Of a stretch of DNA of 64,000 nt, positions 47,191-58,976 are shown one piece after another. The translations under genes and the position numbers were made by a program. The notes under the pieces were generated by a model that saw nothing but the letters and a program-made list of their open reading frames with translations, was not told the origin of the DNA and did not search any database. The DNA comes from Myxococcota bacterium. GTDB taxonomy: Bacteria; Myxococcota_A; UBA9160; UBA4427. Location: positions 1 to 64,000 of the forward strand of contig JASMLK010000132.1 of assembly GCA_030748735.1 (NCBI GenBank), given 5' to 3'. Every line of letters begins with the position of its first letter. Within the stretch, counting starts at the first letter, position 1.

Positions 47191-49800
47191 TCAGTCGGCC
47201 TTCTTCGTTCGGCTCGAGGACTGCCCCAGGGAGGCCCGCACTTCTGCGAGGATCTCGCGCGCCGATTGGTAACGCGCGGCGGGGGCCTTCTGCAAGCACT
47301 TGTTCACCACGGCGGCGAGGCCAGCGGGAAGCTCCGGGCGAAGGTCGCGCACGTCCGGGGGCGGGGTGTGGACATGGTGATAGGGGATGTTGCCTTCCTT
47401 GAAGGGCACGGTCCCCGTCGCCATCTCGAAGATCGTCACACCGAGCGAATAGATGTCGGTGCGGTGGTCGATGTTGCGCCCGAGGGTCTGCTCCGGGCTC
47501 ATGTAGTACGGCGTGCCCGAAACCACCGTCGTGTGGTTGCGCACCTCTTCGACCACCTTGGCGAGACCGAAGTCCATGATCTTGGCCTTCTTGTCTCGCG
47601 TCCACATCGTGTTGGCGCTCTTGATGTCGCGATGCACGACGCGGTTTTCGTGCGCGTAGGCGAGCGCTTCGCACACCTGCACGAGCACGTGGAGAATGCC
47701 CGCCGGTGAAATGACGCCGCGACGTCGCACGATTTCCTTGAGCGTCGTGCCGTCGACATATTCCATTGCGATGTAGTAGCGGCCGTCCTGTTCGCCGGTG
47801 TCGTAGACGGTCACGATGCCCGGATGGTTGAGCTGGGCCGCCGCCTTCGCCTCGCGCATGAAGTTCTTGAGCGCCTGCGGGTTCTCGCGCAGGGATTCGG
47901 GAAGAACCTTGTAGGCCACCAGGCGATCGAGGGACGTGTCCTTCGCCTTGTAGACGATGCCCATGCCACCACGGCCGAGTTCGCCGACGATCTGGTAGCG
48001 CCCGGGTTGACCCGTCGCGCCACCCGCGCGTCCCGCTGCGCCGGCCGCCTGCGATTCGTAGGGACCGAGTTCGCTGCGCAACTCGCGCGCCTCGACGAGC
48101 TTTTGCTCGACATCGCGATAGTGGTAGTCGAACGCGAGGATCTTCTCGAAGATCTCGACGGCCTCGGCGGGGCGCTGGTTCGCCGCGTTGAGGGACGCCA
48201 GTGAGTAGAAGACCGCGAGGTTCTCGCGCGAAAGCGGTTCACCGTCGATCGCGTCTGCGAGCTTCTTGATCGCGAGCGATGTCTGGCCGCGGCTGGCGAA
48301 GATGTCGCCGAGCAGCGCGGAAGCACGGCCGAAGTGCTCGTGGCCGGGTTGAACACGCTGCAGCACCGGGATCGCCTGTTCGTCGGCGCCTTCGCGGTGA
48401 TAGGCCTCGCCGGCGGCGACGTGATCACCCGACTTCGAAAGACATTCGGCTTCTTTTTCGGCGTTGCCCGCGAGCGCCCAGCATTCGGCGGCTTCGGTGA
48501 ACTTGTCGGCAAGCTCGAAGCATTCGGCCGCTTCACCGCGGTCGCCCGCCATGCGGAACATATCGGCCGCCTGCGGGTAGCCGCCCTGTTTCTTGTAACA
48601 GTGCCCGGCGTGCTCGTAGTCTTCGAGCTGCCGGTAGTAGTCGCCGGCTTCGAGATAGTCGCCCGCTTCTTCGAGGAACTCCGCAGCTTCCTTGATCTCA
48701 CCGAGATCGCGATGATGCTCGCCGAGCATCCGTGCCGCGGCTTCGGATTCACCCAATTCGCGCAGGGCTTCGGCCGCGCGCGGCAACTCACCCGCGTCGC
48801 GGAACAACTTGGCCGCACGGGCGTATTCCTGCAGCTTGAGTGCGATCTCCCCGGCTTCCTTGTTGAGTCCGCCCTTTTCGAGAACGTCGAGCGCGCGACC
48901 CGGTTCCTTCGCGCGCATGTAGAGTTTGCCCGCCTGGCCGACGAGCTTCTTGAAGTCGGCGACCGCGGTCGGGTCACCCGCGTTCATCTTGGCGCCTTCT
49001 TCGGCGAAGACTTCTTCGAGGCATTCGGCGGCCAGTAGCCAGGCCTTCGCCTTCACGTAGCACTGCGCGGCGTGACGCAGGAATTCGACTTCACGGAAGC
49101 AGTCGGCCGCCTGCTTGTAGTCTTCCGCCTTTTCGAACATCTCGGCGGCCTGGCTCTTGTTGCCGGCTTCGAGGTGACACTCTGCAGACTTGTGCCAGTC
49201 CTGCTGCTGGGCATAGATGGTGGCCGCCGAGCTTGGATTGCCGGCTTTGAGATAGAACTCCGCGGATTCCGTGAACCGGTTCTGATCGTGGCGAATCTCG
49301 GCAACGCGTTCGAACAACTCGCCCTGGGTGAAGTACTCCGCGGCCTTGTCCATCAGGTCGACGGAAAAGCACAGCTCGCCCGCCTCGGCGTACTCGCCCT
49401 TCTTCGCCAACGCGGCAGCGCGCTTTGCGGTCTTCTTGGAGAGCGCCTTGTCGACTGCAGGCAGCCCATTGCCGACGCTCTCCTCTGCACCGCCTTCGGC
49501 GATGGCCTCTTCGCCATCGCGCCGCGGCAGCGAAGCGAACAGGATCATCAGCAGACCGATCGGCGCGATGATGAACCGCAGCCCGCCGGAAAGTCCGTCC
49601 TCGATGGTGTCGGGGTGGACGATATCGAAGGGGTCCGGAACCTGGGCTTCGATCAGCGAAGCGACCAGTTCGAACATGGCGTCGCTCAAGCGCAGCGAAA
49701 GCGACGACTGCGGGAAGTAGGCCCAGAGCAGCCCCGCCGTACCGGTCACGAGGAACGGCAGACTCAGCAACACCAACAAGATCCGGGTAACGATTCGCAA
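47191..49800 (-). CDS. Membrane-anchored TPR-Ser/Thr protein kinase (C-terminal Hanks kinase)
   Basis: The 869-residue protein starts with a transmembrane helix (ILLVLLSLPFLVTGTAGLLW) and a second one near residue 80 (FIIAPIGLLMILFA). About 450 residues of Cys/Ala/Glu-rich TPR-like repeats follow (AAECFELADKFTEAAECWA, AGHCYKKQGGYPQAADMF). The complete Hanks-type kinase occupies about 600-860: GRGGMGIVYKA, catalytic Lys in AYKVL, HRDIKSAN, DFGLAK and GTPYYMSPEQ. Most bacterial kinases of this class have the kinase domain first and the membrane helix later; this order is reversed. All catalytic residues are present. Between the two helices is a ~50-residue periplasmic loop that could be the sensor. 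Confidence 0.85.
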   Translation of the reverse strand: MRIVTRILLVLLSLPFLVTGTAGLLWAYFPQSSLSLRLSDAMFELVASLIEAQVPDPFDIVHPDTIEDGLSGGLRFIIAPIGLLMILFASLPRRDGEEAIAEGGAEESVGNGLPAVDKALSKKTAKRAAALAKKGEYAEAGELCFSVDLMDKAAEYFTQGELFERVAEIRHDQNRFTESAEFYLKAGNPSSAATIYAQQQDWHKSAECHLEAGNKSQAAEMFEKAEDYKQAADCFREVEFLRHAAQCYVKAKAWLLAAECLEEVFAEEGAKMNAGDPTAVADFKKLVGQAGKLYMRAKEPGRALDVLEKGGLNKEAGEIALKLQEYARAAKLFRDAGELPRAAEALRELGESEAAARMLGEHHRDLGEIKEAAEFLEEAGDYLEAGDYYRQLEDYEHAGHCYKKQGGYPQAADMFRMAGDRGEAAECFELADKFTEAAECWALAGNAEKEAECLSKSGDHVAAGEAYHREGADEQAIPVLQRVQPGHEHFGRASALLGDIFASRGQTSLAIKKLADAIDGEPLSRENLAVFYSLASLNAANQRPAEAVEIFEKILAFDYHYRDVEQKLVEARELRSELGPYESQAAGAAGRAGGATGQPGRYQIVGELGRGGMGIVYKAKDTSLDRLVAYKVLPESLRENPQALKNFMREAKAAAQLNHPGIVTVYDTGEQDGRYYIAMEYVDGTTLKEIVRRRGVISPAGILHVLVQVCEALAYAHENRVVHRDIKSANTMWTRDKKAKIMDFGLAKVVEEVRNHTTVVSGTPYYMSPEQTLGRNIDHRTDIYSLGVTIFEMATGTVPFKEGNIPYHHVHTPPPDVRDLRPELPAGLAAVVNKCLQKAPAARYQSAREILAEVRASLGQSSSRTKKAD

Positions 49801-53156: not shown

Positions 53157-53494
53157 GCTGCTCTTCTCGCTTGGTTGGTGGGCTTGGTTGCTGGGCCCCC
53201 GGTGGTTCTGCCGGCGTATCTGCCCGTGTTTGCCGCGGGACCTCGGCTTTCCCGCCCTCAGCGGCCTCAGCGGGCCGGGCGCGGGCCGGGCGCGGGCACT
53301 CTAGCAGGCTCGGTCGGCACTCGGCCGTCGGTGGGCGTTCAGAAACCCGGGCGTTCGTCCGATATCCCGGTGGAATACCCGCGCCCCCATGGGGCGGCAA
53401 ATCGGTTGTGTGAACCGAACTGCGCTCGGGGTTCGCGCCCGGTTCCAGCCGGACGCGAACGTTGGCAAATGCACGAAACACTCGGGAGCCGCCC
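53157..53494. other. Divergent intergenic region, yebC / hsp70
   Basis: This 338-bp GC-rich region contains a short tandem GGGCCGGGCGC (two copies near 53275-53297). No gene is recognised. Both the yebC and the Hsp70 promoter must lie here; I could not identify sigma70 or heat-shock elements with confidence. Confidence 0.4.
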
Positions 53495-55384
53495 GTGGCA
53501 AACCAGGCAATTGGCATCGATCTCGGAACCAGTAATTCCTGCGTCTCGTTGATGCGGGACTCGGCGGCCGTCGAAGTGCTTTCGAACGCGTTCGGCGAAA
53601 ACACGACCGCGAGCGTCGTGGCCTTTCACGAAGACGGCTCGATCACCGTGGGCAACGCCGCCAAGGCGAACATCATCCACGACCCCGCGCACACGGTTTC
53701 GTCCGCGAAGCGCTTGATCGGCCGCTACCACTTCAGCGAAGAAGTCCGCAAAGCCCAGGCGATCTGCGCCTACGAGATCATGGAAGGGTCGAACCACGGC
53801 GTGCGGATCAAGGTCCGCGACGAAGAATTCTCGCTGCCCGAGATCTCCGCGATGGTGCTGCGCGAAATGAAGCAGATCGCGGAAGCGCGCATCAACGAAA
53901 AAGTCACCAAGGCGGTGATCACCGTGCCCGCCTACTTCAACGACAACCAGCGCCAGGCCACCAAGGACGCCGGGCAGATCGCAGGCCTCGAAGTGCTTCG
54001 CATCCTCAACGAGCCGACCGCAGCGGCGCTCGCCTACGGCTTTGGCAAGGGACTCGAGCAGAAGGTCGCGGTCTACGACCTCGGTGGCGGCACCTTCGAC
54101 ATTTCGATCCTCGAGATCGGCAAGGACATCTTCGAGGTTCTTTCTACCTGCGGCGACACCTTCCTCGGTGGCGACGACTTCGACGATCGCATCCTCGACA
54201 TGCTGGCCGACGGCTTCGTGGCGAAGGAAGGCATCAACCCACGCAACGATCCCTTCGCCTTCGAAAAGCTGAAGGTCGCGGCCGAAGCCGCGAAGAAGGG
54301 GCTTTCGGTCGACGAAGAAGTCGAGATCCGCATCCCGGACGTGCTCGTGGGCGAAGACGGCGAAACCCGTTCCCTCGAACACACGATCACGCGCAGCCAA
54401 TTTGGCGAACTCGTGCAGGATCTCGTGCAGCGCACCTTCAAGGTCTGCGACGAAGCGCTCCAGCAGGCGAACCTCACGGTGCGCGATCTGGACGGCATCA
54501 TCCTGGTCGGTGGGCCGACGCGATTGCCGATCATCCGTGAAGCGGTGTCGCAGTACTTCCAGCAGGAACCCAAGGCCGACGTCGACCCCGACGAGGTCGT
54601 GGCGATGGGCGCAGCGATCCACGCGGCTTCGCTGGTGAACTCCGACCAGGACGCGTTCCTGCTCGACGTAACGCCGCTCGACCTGCGCATCGGCGTTGCC
54701 GGTGGTCTCGCCGAGCCGATCATCGAACGCAACACCCCGGTGCCGATCGAACAGAGCCGCAACTTCAGCCCGTTCAAGGACCACCAGGAATCGGTCACCC
54801 TCAAGGTCTATCAGGGCGATTCGCGACAGGCAGAGCACAACGAGCTGCTGGGCCAGTTCGAGTTTTCGGGCTTCACGCCCGGGCTTCGCAGCAAGACTTC
54901 GATCGAGGTTCGCTTCGAGATCAACGCCGACGGCATCGTAAACGTGATCGCGCGTGACCCGGTGAGCGGTCAGCAGGCTTCGACCGAGATCACCCTCTCG
55001 TCCGGCCTCAGCGAAGCGGAGATGGACGACATCCTCACCCGCGACCGCACGGCCAGCGTGAAGACGGCGGCCAACCCTGACGACGACTCGCAAGACGACG
55101 ACCTCGTGATCGAGCCCAAGGACAGCACGGATACGCTGGAACTCGTAGCGGACGACGACCTCGACGAGGACGACGCAGGCCCGGCCATCGGTCGGGTCGC
55201 CCTCAAGACGGTGGCAGTCGGGCAGCCCACTCCCGTGATGACGGCGCCCGGCTCAGACGAAGATCCCAATGCTGCAGCCGAAACCACCGACACGGACACG
55301 GGCACCGAAACCAGGGATCAACTCTTCGATCGCTCGGAAGACGTCGATCTTTCGGGCGACCCCGAAGACACGCAGCAGGAGTAG
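53495..55384 (+). CDS. Hsp70/DnaK-like chaperone lacking the helical lid
   Basis: From GTG 53495 (GGGAG upstream) the product is 629 residues. The ATPase domain has [25 protein letters not shown] and [15 protein letters not shown]; a beta substrate-binding domain ends at [16 protein letters not shown]. There the canonical ~100-residue alpha-helical lid should begin. Instead a disordered Asp/Glu/Thr-rich tail of about 110 residues follows ([15 protein letters not shown]), without the EEVD-like or lid sequences. A J-protein gene starts 6 nt after the stop, so the two form a dedicated chaperone pair. It is probably not the housekeeping DnaK. Confidence 0.88.
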
Positions 55385-55390
55385 GCGGTC

Positions 55391-55912
55391 TTGTCGGACC
55401 TTTCGGAACTCGAGATCGACGCGCTCGCGAAGATCGCGGGCGAACTCAGCTACTACCAGCTCTTGCAGGTCGAGCCCGACGTTTCGGGCGGCGACCTCAA
55501 GAAGGCCTACTACAGCCTTTCGCGTTCGTACCACCCGGACGCGAACCGGAACCTGCCCGAAAAGGCGCGCGAGGGGTGCCACCGCATCTCGAAGGTGCTG
55601 ACCGAGGCATACTGCGTGCTGCGCGATCCGCGCAAGCGCAAGGCCTACGACGCACAGCTCGAAGAAACCGGAGACCTGCGCATCCAACTGGCCGAAGCCG
55701 CGGCCTCGCACGCAAAGTCCGAATCGGTCCGCCGTACCGGGTCGACGCCGCAGAGCAAGCAATTCCTGCTGAAGGCCGAAGAAGACGTGCGGAACGGGAA
55801 CCTCCCGAGCGCCGTCCAGAACCTCCAGATGGCCCTCACCTTCGAACCCGGCAACACGGGGTTCAATGAAATGCTCGAAGAGCTCCGCAAGCGGCAACAA
55901 GCCGACAAATGA
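55391..55912 (+). CDS. J-domain protein with C-terminal helical repeat
   Basis: The 173-residue protein from TTG 55391 has a J domain near residues 20-90 with the HPD tripeptide in SYHPDANRN and flanking LLQVEPDVSGGDLKKAYYSLS and AYCVLRDPRKRKAYD. The C-terminus (SKQFLLKAEEDVRNGNLPSA, VQNLQMALTFEPGN) is a TPR-like hairpin. Zinc-finger and CTD domains of DnaJ are absent. It should stimulate the ATPase of the adjacent Hsp70. It starts 6 nt after the Hsp70 stop and is coupled. Confidence 0.88.
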   Translation: MSDLSELEIDALAKIAGELSYYQLLQVEPDVSGGDLKKAYYSLSRSYHPDANRNLPEKAREGCHRISKVLTEAYCVLRDPRKRKAYDAQLEETGDLRIQLAEAAASHAKSESVRRTGSTPQSKQFLLKAEEDVRNGNLPSAVQNLQMALTFEPGNTGFNEMLEELRKRQQADK

Positions 55913-56007: not shown

Positions 56008-58140
56008 ATGCATTCGAAACCCGCCCTCCTGCTCGTCCTCATTTCGATCGCAGGAGCCGCGCTCCTCCTGAGCGCCTGTCGCGACAAAGTCGAAGTCGTG
56101 ACCGCCGAAACCTCCGCCACATCGACCGCGACACCCGCTGCGGTTGCCGTTGCTTCGAAGCCGCCCAGCGAGACCGCTCCCCAGGTCGAACTCGTGGCCA
56201 AGCGGCATCCGAGCGAGCGACCGCTCCAGGCTTTCCGCGGCACGGGACTCGAAGGGGAGAGGCTCTCGATCTCCAACTTCATCGGCAAGCGACTCACGCT
56301 CTTCGTCTTCAACCCCGAAGTTCCCGACGCGAGCTTCGTTTCGGACGCGGTTTCGCGCGTCGCGGCGGCCCGGGGCAAGCAGAACTTCCACATCGTGGGC
56401 ATCGCGGTCGGGTCGTCGACCGCGAAGGCCAGGGCCTTTGCGAGCGAGAAGGGCTTCGACTTCCCGGTCTTCGACGACTCGCGTGGAACCATCGCTTCCC
56501 AACTCGGTGTGCGCAGCCCCGTCGGCATCTACGGCTTCGACAACGAGGGCTACTTCGACTTCGCGATCGGCTTCTTCAACCCGAACGTCCCCGACCCGGC
56601 GGGCGTCGTCGAAGAACAGCTGCGCGAGAAGCTGCGGCTCCCCGCAAAGAGCGACGACGAAGGTGGACGCCTCGACCCGCGCCCCACCGCACCAAACTTC
56701 GTAACGCGCCAACTCGACAGTGACGAACCGTTCGACTTCGCATCCATCGCGGGCAAGCCCGCGATCATCATCTTCTTTCTACACACCTGCCCGCACTGCC
56801 ATTCCGCGCTCGACTTCCTGAAGGAACACGTGCTGCGACTGCCGAAAGAGCAGCGACCCGAGGTGATCGCGATCTCGGCCGCCAACCGGCCTTCGGCGGT
56901 GCGCGCCATGTTGAAGGAGCAAAAGCTCGAAGACTTCGAGGGATTGCGGGTCCTGCTCGACCCCGATTCCAAGGTGATGGAAAGCTACGGCGTCTTTGCC
57001 GGCTTCCCCGACCTCTTCATGATCGACGCGAAGGGCAAGATCGTGCACCGCACCCAGGGCTGGCGCGAGCATCGCGACCCGGCGATGAACCGGATGGTGC
57101 TCGCAAAGATCGCAGAGGCGCGCATCCCCATGCTGCTCAACCCGCGCGGCTACACGGGCAGCGATGTCTGCTCGGTGTGCCACGAGGTCGAGGCCCAGAC
57201 CCACGTCTATACCAATCACGCAAGCGCCTACAGCACGATCGTGAAGCACAACGAGACGCGGAACCCCGAATGCGTCGACTGTCACGTCGTGGGCTTCGGC
57301 GAACCGGGTGGATACTCGATCGAGCAGGCGCCGGTGCATCTCGAAAACGTCGGGTGCGAAACGTGCCACGGCCGCGGCGGCCCCCACCTGTCGCCAGACT
57401 TCGTTCCCAAGAACGATGGCGTGAAGAACTACGAGAGCATCTGCCGCACCTGCCACAACCCGACGCATTCACTCTCATTCGACTTCGCGACCTTCCTCCA
57501 ACGCGTCTCGCACAAGAGCATCGCGAGTCTCGACGACAAGGCGCGCGGCGAACTGATTTCGAGCGATCGCGGCCCGCGCGACGTGCTGCCGAAGAACGCC
57601 GACTATGTCGGCTCGCAGGCCTGCCAGAGCTGCCACCCGAGCGAGTTCGCGACCTGGTCGGCGTCGGCGCACAGCAAGTCGGTCGAGAGCCTGTCCGCCA
57701 AGGGCAAGGCCGACGACGCCGATTGCCTCGCCTGTCACACCACGGCGATGGGGCGCAAAGGCGGCTTCCCCGCGGACGGTCGCGGAAGCGACACGTCGCA
57801 CGGCGACCTCGCCTCGGTGGGCTGCGAATCGTGCCACGGCCCCGGCGGCAACCACATCGCCAAGGACGCCAAGAAACTCGGCACGATCGTGAGCCTCGGC
57901 GACAAGTGCGATTCGTGCGCGATCTTGAAGATCTGCGGTTCGTGCCACGACGACGCCAACGATCCGGGCTTCGAGTTCAGGGTCGACGAACGCATCGAAC
58001 ACCAACGTCACGGCACCATCGAACCGGGAACCGGCAAGCCAATTCACGCGAGTCCCACCGCCATGCACCAGCCCGGCCGCGACACGACCGAAGAAGCACT
58101 CGCGCGGGTCTTTCGACTGATCGACGAGCAGGGCTCATGA
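56008..58140 (+). CDS. Redoxin-octaheme cytochrome c fusion lipoprotein
   Basis: The 710-residue exported protein (ATG 56008) has a lipoprotein signal (LLLSAC, Cys24). Two thioredoxin-fold domains follow: the first (~70-205) lacks a Cys pair, and the second (~225-345) has a CPHC site at 261-264. The C-terminal half resembles cytochrome c554/NrfB-type multiheme domains with eight CXXCH sites (388, 422, 450, 479, 539, 573, 606, 643), arranged as two groups of four. CDSCA near 634 is a Cys pair without the heme His. Membrane-attached and periplasm- or surface-facing, it could pass electrons to or from a thiol-disulfide site. The last codon overlaps the UDG gene start. Confidence 0.85.
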   Translation: MHSKPALLLVLISIAGAALLLSACRDKVEVVTAETSATSTATPAAVAVASKPPSETAPQVELVAKRHPSERPLQAFRGTGLEGERLSISNFIGKRLTLFVFNPEVPDASFVSDAVSRVAAARGKQNFHIVGIAVGSSTAKARAFASEKGFDFPVFDDSRGTIASQLGVRSPVGIYGFDNEGYFDFAIGFFNPNVPDPAGVVEEQLREKLRLPAKSDDEGGRLDPRPTAPNFVTRQLDSDEPFDFASIAGKPAIIIFFLHTCPHCHSALDFLKEHVLRLPKEQRPEVIAISAANRPSAVRAMLKEQKLEDFEGLRVLLDPDSKVMESYGVFAGFPDLFMIDAKGKIVHRTQGWREHRDPAMNRMVLAKIAEARIPMLLNPRGYTGSDVCSVCHEVEAQTHVYTNHASAYSTIVKHNETRNPECVDCHVVGFGEPGGYSIEQAPVHLENVGCETCHGRGGPHLSPDFVPKNDGVKNYESICRTCHNPTHSLSFDFATFLQRVSHKSIASLDDKARGELISSDRGPRDVLPKNADYVGSQACQSCHPSEFATWSASAHSKSVESLSAKGKADDADCLACHTTAMGRKGGFPADGRGSDTSHGDLASVGCESCHGPGGNHIAKDAKKLGTIVSLGDKCDSCAILKICGSCHDDANDPGFEFRVDERIEHQRHGTIEPGTGKPIHASPTAMHQPGRDTTEEALARVFRLIDEQGS

Positions 58141-58976
58141 GTTCCGAAGCGAACAACGAGAACCCCGGTGACGTGCGGGACGCCCTGCGCGACGTCGTGG
58201 CGTCTGCGCGGGAATGGTTGGTCGACCTCGCCGAAGAAGGGGTCGACGACCTCGAGGTCCCGGTCGTCGAACCATCGGTTGCGTTCACAGCCCCGGTGGT
58301 TGAAGCGCCAGCGGCGAAGCCTGCGGCCGCCGAACCGCCGCGTCGCACCGCCCCGGAACGCGCAGACCTATCCCTGCTTCGCGAGGGGCCAGACTGGGGC
58401 GCGAACCCGACCCTCGATCAGGTGCGGGAAACCCTCGGTGACTGCCAACGCTGCGAGCTTTGCGCGCGCAGGCAGACGATCGTATTCGGCAGCGGAAACC
58501 CCGACGCCGACATCATGTTCGTCGGCGAGGGCCCGGGTGAGCAGGAAGACAAACAGGGGCTCCCTTTCGTCGGGCGCGCCGGTGAACTGCTTACGCAGAT
58601 GATCGAGAAGGGCGTCGAGATCCCGCGGTCCGACGTCTACATCTGCAACATCGTGAAGTGTCGCCCACCGGGCAATCGCAACCCCAAGCCCGAGGAAGCC
58701 GCGGCCTGCCGCCCCTTCCTCGACGGACAGATCGCCGCCGTGAAACCGAAAGTGATCGTGACACTCGGCAAACCCGCCGCGAGCCTGCTGCTCGGACGCG
58801 ATGTCGCGATCACGCGTGTACGCGGCACCTGGCAGGACTACCAGGGCATCCCGCTGATGCCGACCCTGCACCCCGCCTTCATCCTGCGCCAGTACACGCC
58901 GGAGAATCGGCGACTGGTGTGGGAAGACCTGAAGGCGGCGGTCTCACGCATGCGTGAGTTGGGCGGGCGGAGCTAG
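58137..58976 (+). CDS. Type-4 uracil-DNA glycosylase ([4Fe-4S])
   Basis: The 279-residue protein has a ~100-residue low-complexity N-terminus. The UDG-4 core follows: motif A FVGEGPGEQEDKQGLPFVGRA, cluster Cys in CQRCELC, NIVKCRPPGNRNP and ACRPFL, and the catalytic C-terminal motif LHPAFILR. It removes uracil from DNA. ATG 58137 overlaps the upstream stop (ATGA), so it is translated together with the cytochrome fusion, an odd pairing. Confidence 0.9.
   Translation: MSSEANNENPGDVRDALRDVVASAREWLVDLAEEGVDDLEVPVVEPSVAFTAPVVEAPAAKPAAAEPPRRTAPERADLSLLREGPDWGANPTLDQVRETLGDCQRCELCARRQTIVFGSGNPDADIMFVGEGPGEQEDKQGLPFVGRAGELLTQMIEKGVEIPRSDVYICNIVKCRPPGNRNPKPEEAAACRPFLDGQIAAVKPKVIVTLGKPAASLLLGRDVAITRVRGTWQDYQGIPLMPTLHPAFILRQYTPENRRLVWEDLKAAVSRMRELGGRS

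Follow-up and report, generated by a model that had tools for sequence, protein, structure and literature searches.

A CPHC thioredoxin domain joined to a c554-type octaheme cytochrome in a class-wide myxobacterial lipoprotein: a possible thiol:cytochrome oxidoreductase

The window, a 64,000-nucleotide stretch from a Myxococcota bacterium, carries at 56008–58140 (plus strand, like every feature below unless stated otherwise) a gene for a lipoprotein of 710 amino acids that joins thioredoxin-fold domains to an octaheme cytochrome. It is tentatively proposed, at a probability of roughly 0.4, that this protein is exported and combines a thiol-disulfide oxidoreductase with an octaheme chain of two c554-type modules, acting as a thiol:cytochrome oxidoreductase in which a DsbA-like site would have a built-in heme sink. 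The sequence makes it plausible that thiol chemistry is coupled to heme transfer, and electron exchange between thiols of the envelope and the respiratory cytochromes is probable because a protein-disulfide-type active site is joined to an eight-heme wire. The electrons probably run from thiols to hemes, a direction to which the evidence points weakly. Disulfide chemistry in the envelope is normally tied either to respiration, via quinones and DsbB or VKOR, or, via DsbD, to cytoplasmic NADPH. If the proposal is true, a third link would exist, namely a DsbA-like site coupled to a multiheme chain.

The gene is a single open frame with full-length homologues. It begins 95 bases after the end of a J-domain gene, and its stop codon overlaps the start of the downstream uracil-DNA glycosylase gene as ATGA. 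A signal peptide and a lipobox (LLSAC, 56008–56079) recognized in the sequence provide the lipid-bearing Cys24, which is kept in 53 of the 69 aligned class rows. These are followed by a Cys-less redoxin domain, a CPHC domain of the ResA/AhpC-TSA fold, and two c554-type tetraheme domains carrying eight CXXCH motifs. In Pfam, AhpC-TSA/Redoxin and Cytochrome_C554 each give two stretches that exceed the curated cut-offs, the best lying at residues 227–347 (AhpC-TSA) and 387–455 (Cytochrome_C554). The coordinates, frame, and motifs of the initial annotation are borne out: CXXCH occurs nine times, at residues 261, 388, 422, 450, 479, 539, 573, 606, and 643, and CDSCA lies at 634. When the residues of this protein were shuffled 20,000 times, no shuffle contained more than three CXXCH strings. 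None of its 21 cysteines is left unassigned: one serves the lipid anchor, two the CPHC site, sixteen the hemes, and two the CDSC motif.

The initial annotation raised the possibility that the fusion arose by assembly error, which separate encoding of the two parts in close relatives would have revealed. The fusion into one lipoprotein is conserved in relatives, where every complete copy examined is fused. Of the 80 class genomes overall, 76 contain the fused protein, including all 43 with at least 90% completeness and at most 5% contamination; apparently split copies are mostly located at contig ends. The 69 aligned class rows include independently assembled metagenome genomes from many sites, and the domain order is constant wherever a row is complete. 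An artefact of assembly or annotation is ruled out by the 43 good genomes together with conserved gene order. The gene for this thioredoxin-octaheme lipoprotein is a class-wide core gene without a named family, and almost all members of this uncultured myxobacterial lineage have it.

The conserved order, seen in nearly all class loci with enough flanking DNA, is RuvBAC, YebC (reverse), Hsp70, J-domain protein, cytochrome gene, uracil-DNA glycosylase, PurE, and AroE. The upstream neighbors in the window are an Hsp70 of the DnaK family (53462–55384; Pfam HSP70) and a DnaJ-TPR J-domain protein (55391–55912; Pfam DnaJ), and the overlapping downstream neighbor belongs to the uracil-DNA glycosylase superfamily (58137–58976; Pfam UDG); synteny identifies all three as well. 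Between 53462 and 58976, an exported cytochrome and cytoplasmic chaperone and DNA-repair proteins have no obvious common task despite the fixed order. On the minus strand, 47191–49800 encodes a long TPR-like protein that, judged by eye, ends in a Ser/Thr kinase domain; its position upstream of ruvBAC is conserved in several relatives. A scan of viral contigs with the Hsp70 neighbor gave no match.

A shorter form is found in at least six other Myxococcota families. It combines a signal peptide with a single thioredoxin domain, whose motif reads C[PGS]HC, and with the eight hemes seen in the class form; domain 1 is absent from the aligned region. The 18 sequences of this form make up a single supported clade apart from the class clade (100/100), and the pairing of CxHC with an octaheme part therefore predates the class. 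Judged from the alignment, the Cys-less domain 1 appears to set the class form apart. These distribution data describe the Myxococcota, and genomes beyond it were covered by one scan with patterns specific to the window protein. At the distant loci outside the class, no conserved redox neighbors were found, and the genes that adjoin them are specific to each lineage. At four of them, all from one family (L083, L088, L091, and L094), the shorter gene adjoins related large membrane-protein-like frames.

Domain 1 (56206–56655) is the second AhpC-TSA/Redoxin stretch, a pseudo-thioredoxin of redoxin fold modeled by AF2 with a pLDDT of about 90. The description of this domain as Cys-less holds in 66 of 69 class members, and it has no peroxidatic Cys motif. 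Domain 2 (56686–57069) corresponds to the PF00578 stretch at residues 227–347, and its AF2 model is confident (pLDDT mostly >90); the protein scores 78.2 bits against a cut-off of 26 with PF00578 and 72.2 against 26.6 with PF08534. Against solved structures, Foldseek matches domain 2 best to ResA, the CPHC variant 3c71 among them (E about 1e-9, mostly 21–28% identity). The active site CPHCH (residues 261–265, 56788–56802) was followed through 87 aligned sequences, composed of the 69 class rows and 18 distant homologues of the shorter form. C261, C264, and cis-Pro334 (57007–57009) are present in 87/87 and H263 in 86/87. A CXXC at the start of a helix and a cis-Pro in every sequence are consistent with the AF2 fold.

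This domain resembles two groups of thiol oxidoreductases with different activities. It shares its fold and the AhpC-TSA family with ResA and CcmG, TlpA-like extracytoplasmic thioredoxins, but these are single-domain reductases without heme domains, whereas the window protein has CPHC and an octaheme fusion. Its score with the ResA equivalog PRK03147 is 46.9 bits, far below the NCBIfam cut-off of 170. With the class I DsbA oxidases it shares CPHC and, in most class members, the Val before the cis-Pro. The residue at this position is Val in 62 of 69 class members, Phe in the window protein, and Thr in all 18 distant sequences. The DsbA helical domain is missing, and the DSBA profile (PF01323) did not match the window protein, which matches ResA/dsbE models of NCBIfam instead, below their cut-offs.

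CPHC together with Val before the cis-Pro marks DsbA proteins of class I (PMC4597128). CPHC proteins are often oxidizing, as in DsbA (-89/-124 mV) and AfTrx1 (-32 mV), but when CPHC was engineered into a thioredoxin, the potential remained at -221 mV (PMC4395160). The CXXC sequence alone does not set the redox potential, and the motif thus leans toward oxidation without proving it. The CxHC kept across the homologues is the signature of DsbA type.

CPHCH is formally a CXXCH motif, and a ninth heme had been considered conceivable there. The fifth residue, His265, is present in 66 of 69 class members, but in none of the 18 distant homologues, which mostly have Gln or Arg. Gln or Arg also replaces it in three class members, and C261, C264, and P334 are always retained. 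A ninth heme is unlikely, since the thioredoxin cysteines and cis-Pro persist where His265 is lost, and the confident AF2 model folds the CPHCH region as a ResA-like site; the idea has very little left to recommend it. The retention of His265 in the class possibly reflects a role adjoining the active-site helix. The three rows lacking it (L063, L065, and L101) are copies in other genomic surroundings. L063 and L065, a CPHCQ/CPHCR pair, are both on a long branch within the family clade of the window protein, which suggests transfer to another lineage. The class genome G061 has two copies, L101 (G061:C303) and L102 (G061:C497), and in the non-syntenic copy CSYCR takes the place of CPHCH.

The two groups of four CXXCH described by the initial annotation are conserved and are better defined as tandem c554-type tetraheme domains. 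Cytochrome_C554 (PF13435) scores 85.2 bits against a cut-off of 20.8, in two stretches. Domain A (57145–57537; phmmer to 1bvb, E 4e-12) contains the motifs A1 CSVCH (57169–57183, invariant in 87 sequences), A2 CVDCH (57271–57285), A3 CETCH (57355–57369, 86/87), and A4 CRTCH (57442–57456, 86/87). Domain B (57592–58017; phmmer to 1bvb, E 3e-12) contains B1 CQSCH (57622–57636, 87/87), B2 CLACH (57724–57738), B3 CESCH (57823–57837, 87/87), and B4 CGSCH (57934–57948, heme 8, 87/87). These near-invariant motifs and the presence of Ccm predict covalent attachment of eight hemes. AF2 confidence is lower for the heme half than for the thioredoxin domains, and its top fold match is 1bvb, the Nitrosomonas cytochrome c554 (E 9e-4, modest TM-score). 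Other proteins with eight CXXCH motifs are encoded in the source genome (L002 on C43 and L004 on C72); they contain c554-like pieces but lack a thioredoxin domain.

Seven histidines outside the heme motifs are near-invariant (404, 460, 487, 502, 555, 616, and 668; 85 to 87 of 87), and no conserved Met was found throughout the heme region of the 87 aligned sequences. With seven candidate distal histidines for eight hemes, one heme would be open or otherwise ligated. Hemes A2 and B2 align with heme 2 of c554, reported to be the active site of c554 and of the related OcwA (PMC6703420). The protein may accordingly be imagined as a catalytic cytochrome whose open site of this kind acts on a small molecule containing nitrogen or sulfur and whose thioredoxin domain binds a sulfur substrate or delivers it. 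The alignment of A2 and B2 and the shortage of one His favor such an enzyme, but the ligand assignment is read from sequence and the neighbors are chaperone and DNA-repair genes, with no metabolic operon. This explanation is considered improbable.

A further cysteine pair lies six residues before heme B4. The motif CDSC (residues 634–637, 57907–57918) had been taken for a heme site without its His. It is instead a near-invariant non-heme CXXC: C634 is present in 86/87 and C637 in 87/87 sequences, and in none of the 87 does a His follow. The motif reads CDSC in most of the class and CPVC or CPEC in the distant forms. Several roles are possible for C634 and C637: they may form a structural disulfide or a redox-active dithiol, ligate a heme, or bind a metal. 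They might also form a second redox dithiol beside heme 8, or provide a Cys ligand for the one heme that lacks a conserved additional His, and so relay electrons between CPHC and the heme chain. The protein would then be a flavin- and quinone-free thiol:cytochrome oxidoreductase and the disulfide-bond electron sink of the whole class, an extended version that is regarded as rather doubtful.

The Dsb and Ccm systems were inventoried in 40 good class genomes. DsbA-family proteins are found in 40/40, although the DSBA profile also takes in cytoplasmic relatives, and DsbD/CcdA in 38/40. DsbB is found in 11 and VKOR in 9, and 21 genomes have neither. This scarcity fits a need for another thiol oxidant, with the reservation that small diverged membrane proteins can escape detection. 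Neither Dsb branch is plainly missing, because the source genome itself has a DsbB match and CcdA/DsbD is nearly universal. If the proposed activity is true, it would explain thiol re-oxidation in members without recognizable DsbB and VKOR. CcmE is present in 39/40 genomes, which supports the availability of Ccm-type heme attachment in the class. System II (ResB), found in 4/40 only, is rejected as the attachment route.

The substrates of ResA and CcmG are apocytochrome CXXCH motifs. As these proteins are the closest folds, the thioredoxin domain might be a private aid to maturation or folding that maintains the CXXCH cysteines of its own protein in the reduced state needed for heme attachment and stands outside the electron flow of the finished protein. 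Such a role has little to recommend it: the other eight-CXXCH proteins of the source genome do without this domain, Ccm is present, a ResA-like frame lies elsewhere in the same genome, and the near-invariant CDSC would be left unexplained.

Several observations count for the transfer of electrons from thiols to hemes. The whole build is strictly conserved, and the fusion occurs in the 43 good class genomes and in the sister clade of other families. The Cys pair of CxHC and the cis-Pro are invariant, the heme motifs are near-invariant, and there is no spare Cys. The class consensus of CPHC and Val-cis-Pro, the presence of Ccm, and the scarcity of DsbB/VKOR point the same way, and the fusion of PCGU to a tetraheme domain in the same phylum may serve as a useful parallel. 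On the other side stand the ResA/CcmG-like fold, which belongs to a reductase family; the Phe, not Val, before the cis-Pro in the window protein; the engineered CPHC thioredoxin at -221 mV; the DsbB of the source genome; and the near-universal CcdA/DsbD. In addition, direct transfer from a dithiol to heme requires one-electron sulfur intermediates, and to our knowledge it has no precedent in such a form.

The main rival is the reverse direction, in which the hemes feed CPHC for the reduction of disulfides, other oxidized sulfur, or peroxide outside the cell membrane. Besides the reductase fold and the Redoxin/AhpC-TSA family, it draws on Shewanella Mtr multiheme mutants, which are impaired in extracellular disulfide reduction (PMC10986466), and on octaheme OTR and SirA/MccA, which reduce sulfur compounds. 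CPHC with Val-cis-Pro is, however, typical of oxidases, CcdA/DsbD as the usual source of reductant is in 38/40 genomes, and domain 1 has no peroxidatic Cys motif. The reverse direction is possible but unlikely.

In the proposed thiol-to-heme pathway, client thiols in the envelope would reduce the CPHC disulfide. The electron pair would then leave CPHC, perhaps via C634/C637, and enter the hemes one electron at a time, and the hemes would hand the electrons to an acceptor, either a cytochrome or one linked to quinones. Domain 1 would have no catalytic part and would serve as a scaffold or bind clients. If this pathway is true, the purified protein would be a spectroscopically visible system for dithiol-to-heme transfer.

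Both halves come from known families, but the combined architecture has no named family, and no characterized protein of such build was found. None of the NCBIfam equivalogs reached its cut-off with the window protein, and searches of an open-access library yielded no paper that describes a fusion of thioredoxin and multiheme parts. Cytochrome c554 is the best sequence and fold match of the heme part, but the window protein has two tandem copies, an extra CXXC, and fused thioredoxin domains, and it scores 80.4 bits against a cut-off of 400 with the CycA equivalog (NF043010). The octaheme or nonaheme proteins OTR, MccA/SirA, and OcwA share the c554/NrfA-related heme packing and act on sulfur compounds or extracellular acceptors; in the literature consulted, no thioredoxin domain is described for them. 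Their matches to the window protein are only short or weak; that of MccA covers about 30 residues at E 2 and above (Foldseek).

The best NCBIfam match is UshA_like_PCGU (NF041198), with 191.1 bits against a cut-off of 275 and its best stretch in the cytochrome part. Proteins of this family occur in the same phylum and likewise join a redox-active Cys/Sec domain to a c554-like tetraheme domain, but they have an N-terminal phosphoesterase-type domain with PCGU, only one tetraheme domain, and no thioredoxin fold, and the window protein has no PCG[UC]. This match prompted the idea that CDSC has a selenocysteine counterpart, which is ruled out because the Sec of that family sits in the N-terminal PCGU. 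Among the UshA-like PCGU proteins of Myxococcota (L123–L132 and others), many families have an in-frame TGA at PCGU and others have Cys.
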